From positions 62,001 through 126,000 of the forward strand of contig NZ_FOPZ01000001.1 in the NCBI RefSeq assembly GCF_900113615.1: a stretch of DNA of 64,000 bases, read 5' to 3'. Positions within the stretch are counted from its first letter, which is position 1, and the number at the start of each line of letters is the position of its first letter. Source of the stretch: Halorubrum aquaticum (GTDB taxonomy: Archaea; Halobacteriota; Halobacteria; Halobacteriales; Haloferacaceae). Position numbers and translations under genes: made by a program. Of the stretch, positions 39,926 through 40,753 are shown piece by piece. The notes below the pieces were generated by a model that saw nothing but the letters and a program-made list of their open reading frames with translations, made no database searches and had not been told where the DNA came from.

Positions 39926-40003
39926 GACGAGTGCGAGCGCCTCCGTGTGAAAACGGGCAGGTTAGTCCGGCTGCGCGTCACCGTTGCTGACATCGAGATC
40001 CGC

Positions 40004-40346
40004 TCAGGCGGATATGTAGCCGATCGTTCGTGTCGCCACGTCCTCGGTACGTTCGTCGGTGAGAGAAGTCATGTGGAGTTCGACCTCCGTTGCGCTGTTG
40101 AGGGTCGCGAGCGACCACGGGAGGACGTGACTCCGTTTCCCGAGCGGGTCGCCCTCGTAGTCGTCGTCTCGAAGCGTGAGCGACTCCTCGTGGTAGGCCT
40201 TCGTGGAGATCGGGACCGTGACGAGTTGGGGGCCGTGATTAGGGAACCGAGGAGCCCTCCAAAACGAGCATCGGGCGGCCTTTCTCGGAGAGCGGATCGG
40301 TCGCCCAGACGACGTCGCCGCGTTCCAGTTCACCGAACGCGGTCAC
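40004..40346 (-). pseudogene. PemK/MazF-family toxin, frame broken by one base (CCC-TAA)
   Basis: GTG 40346 overlaps the upstream antitoxin stop by 4 bases (GTGA). The first 35 codons read GELERGDVVWATDP and GRPMLVLEGSSVP, then stop at TAA 40241-40239. Skipping the T at 40241 restores NHGPQLVTVPISTKAYHEE and on to the TGA at 40004, giving 113 residues, the normal MazF length, with the typical RGDVVW start and PWSLAT centre. Either a single-base indel inactivated an endoribonuclease toxin, or the CCC-T slippery site allows +1 frameshifting. No other damage is visible in either half. Confidence 0.8.
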
Positions 40347-40729
40347 CGTACCTTCTCCATGTCGTCGGTCCGCAGATCCTCGAGGCGCTCCTCGCCGTAC
40401 CGTTCGTCCGCGGTCTCGTGGTGTCGGTGTAGTCGATAGGCCGATCGGAGGCGTTCCTCGTCGTCCGTGATCGCCCAGTACGGACGTTTGTGTCGCACGA
40501 GACCGCGTTCTTTCAGTCGCGAGAGGATCGCACTGACGGCGTCCGTATCCAACCCGAGCCGATCGGCGATCGTCGCCGCCTTCCACGCGCGGTCGTCGTT
40601 CTCGTCGAGAAACGAGACGATCCGCTCGGTATCGTTTCGCCCCTCGAACTCGTCGACATCGGCGTTCTCGAACTCGCTGATATCGATGGTTTCGCCCGAC
40701 ATGGACGGTTGTTGGTTCCGTTGGACCAT
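40343..40729 (-). CDS. MarR-like winged-helix antitoxin/repressor
   Basis: A 128-residue protein. Residues about 38-95 form a winged helix: TERIVSFLDENDDRAWKAAT, IADRLGLDTDAVSAILSRL and KERGLVRHKRPYWAI. The C-terminal helix region is Arg/Glu rich and could mask the toxin. In haloarchaea such proteins are the usual partner of MazF-like toxins. ATG 40729 is favoured since CTTAACC lies 28 bases upstream (leaderless); ATG 40702 is an alternative. The stop overlaps the toxin start. It probably represses its own operon. Confidence 0.82.
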   Translation of the reverse strand: MVQRNQQPSMSGETIDISEFENADVDEFEGRNDTERIVSFLDENDDRAWKAATIADRLGLDTDAVSAILSRLKERGLVRHKRPYWAITDDEERLRSAYRLHRHHETADERYGEERLEDLRTDDMEKVR

Positions 40730-40753
40730 AGCTATTTGGGGTGTTTGTTAGTT

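Follow-up and report, generated by a model that had tools for sequence, protein, structure and literature searches.

For MazF toxins, Makarova 2009 lists AbrB (MazE-like) and RHH antitoxins, among others (PMC2701414). Toxin-antitoxin (TA) loci can also be found in decay, and in Shigella flexneri the YacB toxin is frameshifted and its antitoxin retained, forming a degraded TA locus (PMC7354431). A frame change within a gene may on the other hand be part of its normal expression, as in the Listeria phages PSA, A118 and A500, which use programmed +1 frameshifting at CCC_UGA (PMC5009743). Literature searches found no study of the haloarchaeal PemK/winged-helix pair described here.

The window, which is the whole 64,000-nucleotide stretch of Halorubrum aquaticum DNA that was analysed, carries a PemK/MazF-type toxin gene on the minus strand (40346-40004) that is interrupted once, by one net extra base. 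Frame 0, which begins at a GTG start at 40346, reads VTAFGELERGDVVWATDPLSEKGRPMLVLEGSSVP and ends at the TAA at 40241-40239, while the +1 frame carries ...APRFPNHGPQLVTVPISTKAYHEESL... up to the stop at 40004. Codons 1-29 of the 5' part are genuine toxin and the EGSSVP that follows them is out-of-frame. The original prediction described a toxin of 113 residues split into two halves lying one extra base apart, with no other damage, an intact antitoxin and a 4-base overlap, and all of this is borne out by the reading frames of the window, in which no second lesion of the toxin occurs. The open reading frame of the antitoxin is extendable to an ATG at 40729, and the conserved start is at 40702. 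The module has the layout of a type II TA system, consisting of two small overlapping genes with the antitoxin first, and the pair is conserved among relatives. Coordinates of the features are given in Table 1.

Table 1. Features of the toxin-antitoxin locus, in coordinates of the window.
Feature	Position	Strand	Description
Toxin 5' part, frame 0	40239..40346	(-)	GTG to TAA, 35 codons
Toxin 3' part, +1 frame	40004..40255	(-)	Codons 31-113 + stop, undamaged
One-base insertion site	40256..40259	(-)	GAGG in place of one glycine codon (codon 30) of aligned intact relatives
CCC-TAA	40239..40244	(-)	First stop of the shifted frame, from ancestral F-P-N codons; lesion elsewhere
Antitoxin	40343..40702	(-)	Intact, 119 aa, winged helix-turn-helix, MarR_2 30.2 bits
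Antitoxin stop/toxin start overlap	40343..40346	(-)	GTGA, same in aligned relatives

The toxin was assigned to a family from Pfam matches only. Each of the 20 intact relatives tested has a match to PF02452 (PemK_toxin), with E-values of up to 0.1, in line with the earlier description of the gene as MazF-like. Two relatives scored singly fall on either side of the curated cut-off of 23.1 bits, L012 with 29.3 bits and L008 (L008/L034, a close intact relative) with 15.9 bits. Neither half of the window's toxin matches PF02452 alone, and the uninterrupted whole-toxin frame is absent from this copy, being broken at codon 30. Several copies on plasmids carry the annotation PemK-like toxin or PemK/MazF family toxin. 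A PDB sequence search gave no match, PADLOC and NCBIfam returned only weak HTH or CARF-type matches, to the antitoxin, and the phage records searched gave no relative. AlphaFold models were of low confidence, with a mean pLDDT of 44.9 for an intact relative of the toxin and 43.6 for the antitoxin. The genome of the window contains two more intact PF02452 genes, which adjoin each other on another contig (G000:C5:80383-81424).

The locus is very probably a haloarchaeal type II TA pair in which the toxin has recently been inactivated by insertion of one base in codon 30. In most of the intact relatives, which come from Halorubrum and other haloarchaeal genera, the sequence runs uninterrupted as MLVLG[AT]P[RQ][FL]PNHG. 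The window has APRFPNHG in the +1 frame already, ahead of the CCC-TAA, which places the extra base in the GAGG, five codons or about 12 nt upstream of the CCC-TAA. The residues A-P-R-F-P between the insertion and the stop agree with the relatives in the +1 frame, and the frame-0 residues E-G-S-S-V have no counterpart among the toxin relatives compared. Frame-aware protein-to-DNA alignment locates the +1 shift in codon 30 of the toxin, in the context GTTTTGGAGGGCT, and in a BLASTN comparison with the syntenic ortholog of a related-species genome (G001) the gene's only gap is at GGAGGG versus GG-GAG, in agreement with codon 30. The break had been predicted to lie exactly at CCC-TAA, through the T at 40241, and in this the prediction was mistaken, the T being part of the ancestral sequence (TTC CCT AAT = F-P-N). 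On these alignments CCC-TAA is merely the first stop reached in the wrong reading frame. How often such a stop arises by chance was examined by simulating one-base insertions in 70 intact relatives, where CCC preceded the first stop in 1.1% and any homopolymer codon did so in 8.0%. A CCC-stop after a one-base insertion is uncommon, but it is a feature that was chosen after the fact.

The prediction had also offered a second reading, that programmed +1 frameshifting at CCC-TAA gives a limited amount of full-length toxin, throttled relative to the antitoxin. We consider this highly improbable. Re-pairing of a P-site CCC on CCT is possible and the frame downstream is undamaged, CCC beside a stop is the known +1 site in the Listeria phage tail genes (CCC_UGA, PMC5009743), and +1 frameshifting has also been suggested for the haloarchaeal virus HSTV-2 (PMC8211752). 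The claimed geometry of known +1 sites has a precedent in Listeria, but the frame change in the window is not at the CCC, which is codon 35 of a frame already shifted, and the slip product would have Glu in place of Gly30, a glycine shared without exception by 20 intact relatives. No relative examined needs or keeps a shift here, and the 70 intact toxins read through; the other broken copies have differing lesions, in both shift directions, and none shares the lesion of the window. RNA downstream folds no better than shuffled sequences (z-score 0.53) and no stimulatory structure is predicted, although not every +1 frameshift site needs such a structure. At the bacterial prfB +1 site the Shine-Dalgarno sequence is closely spaced, unlike the GGAGG Shine-Dalgarno-like stretch found here 11 nt from the CCC. 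The grounds for rejecting programmed frameshifting at CCC-TAA are the place where the indel lies, the lack of conservation of the site, the diversity of lesions and the RNA folding. Unselected, adventitious frameshifting at a low level, leaking traces of a toxin with an altered loop, is permitted by the same geometry and by two toxin halves that are otherwise intact, but positive evidence for it is nil and the invariant glycine would be lost, and it appears just as remote.

The pair lies between menD and a gene encoding a 292-aa protein in both the window genome and G001. The G001 toxin is without the indel at codon 30 and has a TGA in place of Trp14, a residue that is invariant in 20 intact relatives and is kept in the window's toxin, so the two losses are independent. 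Between the window and G001, dN/dS is 0.12 in the 3' part of the toxin, 0.17 in the toxin as a whole and 0.08 in the antitoxin. The few nonsynonymous changes in the 3' half are consistent with a young lesion in a gene that was under selection until recently, although a low value would also be expected were some full-length toxin still produced. Synonymous divergence from G001 is 0.70 for the antitoxin and 0.42 for the toxin, compared with 0.26-0.29 for the flanking genes, which suggests recombination, separate acquisition or weaker codon constraint in the pair. Among the genomes checked, only the window genome and G001 have the cassette (39926-40751) between menD and the 292-aa gene. Several other Halorubrum genomes have no more than roughly 100 nt between these two genes, too little to accommodate the pair, and in many others up to about 1 kb of different sequence separates them.

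Genus- and class-wide searches yielded 97 distinct haloarchaeal loci, which were scored by frame-aware alignment. Both genes are intact in 68 of them, a broken or truncated toxin accompanies an intact antitoxin in 18, the reverse occurs in 2, and both genes are incomplete in 9. Disrupted toxins thus make up 18/86 of the loci with an intact antitoxin. The two loci with an intact toxin and an incomplete antitoxin comprise one in which the antitoxin enters N in the record and one with an in-frame deletion in a MAG, and in none of the 97 scored loci is an antitoxin adjoining an intact toxin clearly interrupted by a stop or frameshift. The 18:2 asymmetry between these two classes of loci has a binomial p of 0.00016. 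Broken toxins have stops at codons 14, 33, 33, 33 and 78, +1 indels at codons 15 and 30, and -1 indels at codons 6, 23, 31, 39, 39, 50 and 68, and the remainder of the 18 are truncated or replaced. On an antitoxin tree, which is poorly resolved, the 18 broken loci require 16 changes and are therefore mostly separate events. Loss can be seen within one species in Natrinema thermotolerans, where the toxin is intact in DSM 11552 (L030) and has a 1-nt deletion in strain A29 (L226), the sole indel between the two strains in about 1150 nt. Both the place of the lesion in the window and this survey support a fresh loss-of-function indel, which was one of the two alternatives first proposed.

Eight of the 18 toxin lesions fall within codons 29-42, the stretch after GRPMLVL (scan p about 0.03), and this cluster is not taken as a signal because it was the finding itself that drew attention to these codons. 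Two loci (L159 and L166) have a toxin or toxin fragments without an antitoxin, and the L159 toxin (codons 9-112) is open from unrelated sequence upstream.

Some individual lesions in the survey may be assembly errors, and the same could apply to the window, in which case the toxin would be intact in the living strain. The genome is a draft of 40 contigs, the insertion site is G-rich, and the relatives found to have an uninterrupted frame, as the prediction had asked for, are comparisons at the level of other species. Like lesions nevertheless recur in many independent assemblies, and they spare the equally long antitoxin, a pattern that random error would not give. A coarse check over about 200 kb compared with G001 gave no sign of an error-prone assembly, as the frame differences flagged there lay mostly in wrong-frame ORFs, at the edges of genes or in variable regions (o337 excepted). 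An assembly or sequencing error is accordingly judged unlikely.

If the insertion is real, translation of the toxin would run through 29 codons in the correct frame and about six out of frame before reaching the TAA, and the product would be without about 70% of the domain and probably inactive. The retained antitoxin has perhaps simply not yet decayed, or it may still repress its own promoter or neutralise related haloarchaeal plasmid toxins. Loss of a toxin would be tolerated and loss of an antitoxin beside a working toxin would not, so that broken toxins beside intact antitoxins are expected to accumulate repeatedly across the class. Inactivation of the toxin beside an intact antitoxin is ordinary for TA loci and occurs repeatedly. 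A more specific proposal, that PemK/wHTH loci are under recurrent selection for a toxin-off/antitoxin-on state that protects against addiction to copies carried on plasmids, is rather doubtful, and if it were true, toxin lesions would appear and be retained at a higher rate than under neutral decay.

Any upstream indel that shifts the frame can expose a stop next to a slippery-looking codon, and here the alignment of relatives revealed the true place of the frame change and corrected a tempting reading. The same alignments make the asymmetry between the two genes of this family countable, and the concentration of lesions in the toxin and not in the antitoxin suggests that this little-studied haloarchaeal pair acts as a toxin-antitoxin system.

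Compared with other haloarchaeal pairs of a PF02452 protein and a 'helix-turn-helix domain-containing protein', the locus has the same gene order, GTGA overlap and 113-aa toxin length, and differs in that its toxin copy is broken. It departs from the MazF pairs of PMC2701414 in its antitoxin, which is a MarR-like winged helix and not AbrB or RHH. The Listeria phage CCC_UGA sites share with it a CCC proline codon directly before a stop, but here the stop is TAA, the ancestral frame is lost upstream, and the site is without conservation or downstream structure. In Shigella flexneri YacB, as in the window, one frameshift leads to an early stop in the toxin and the antitoxin is kept, although the two cases differ in toxin family and domain of life.
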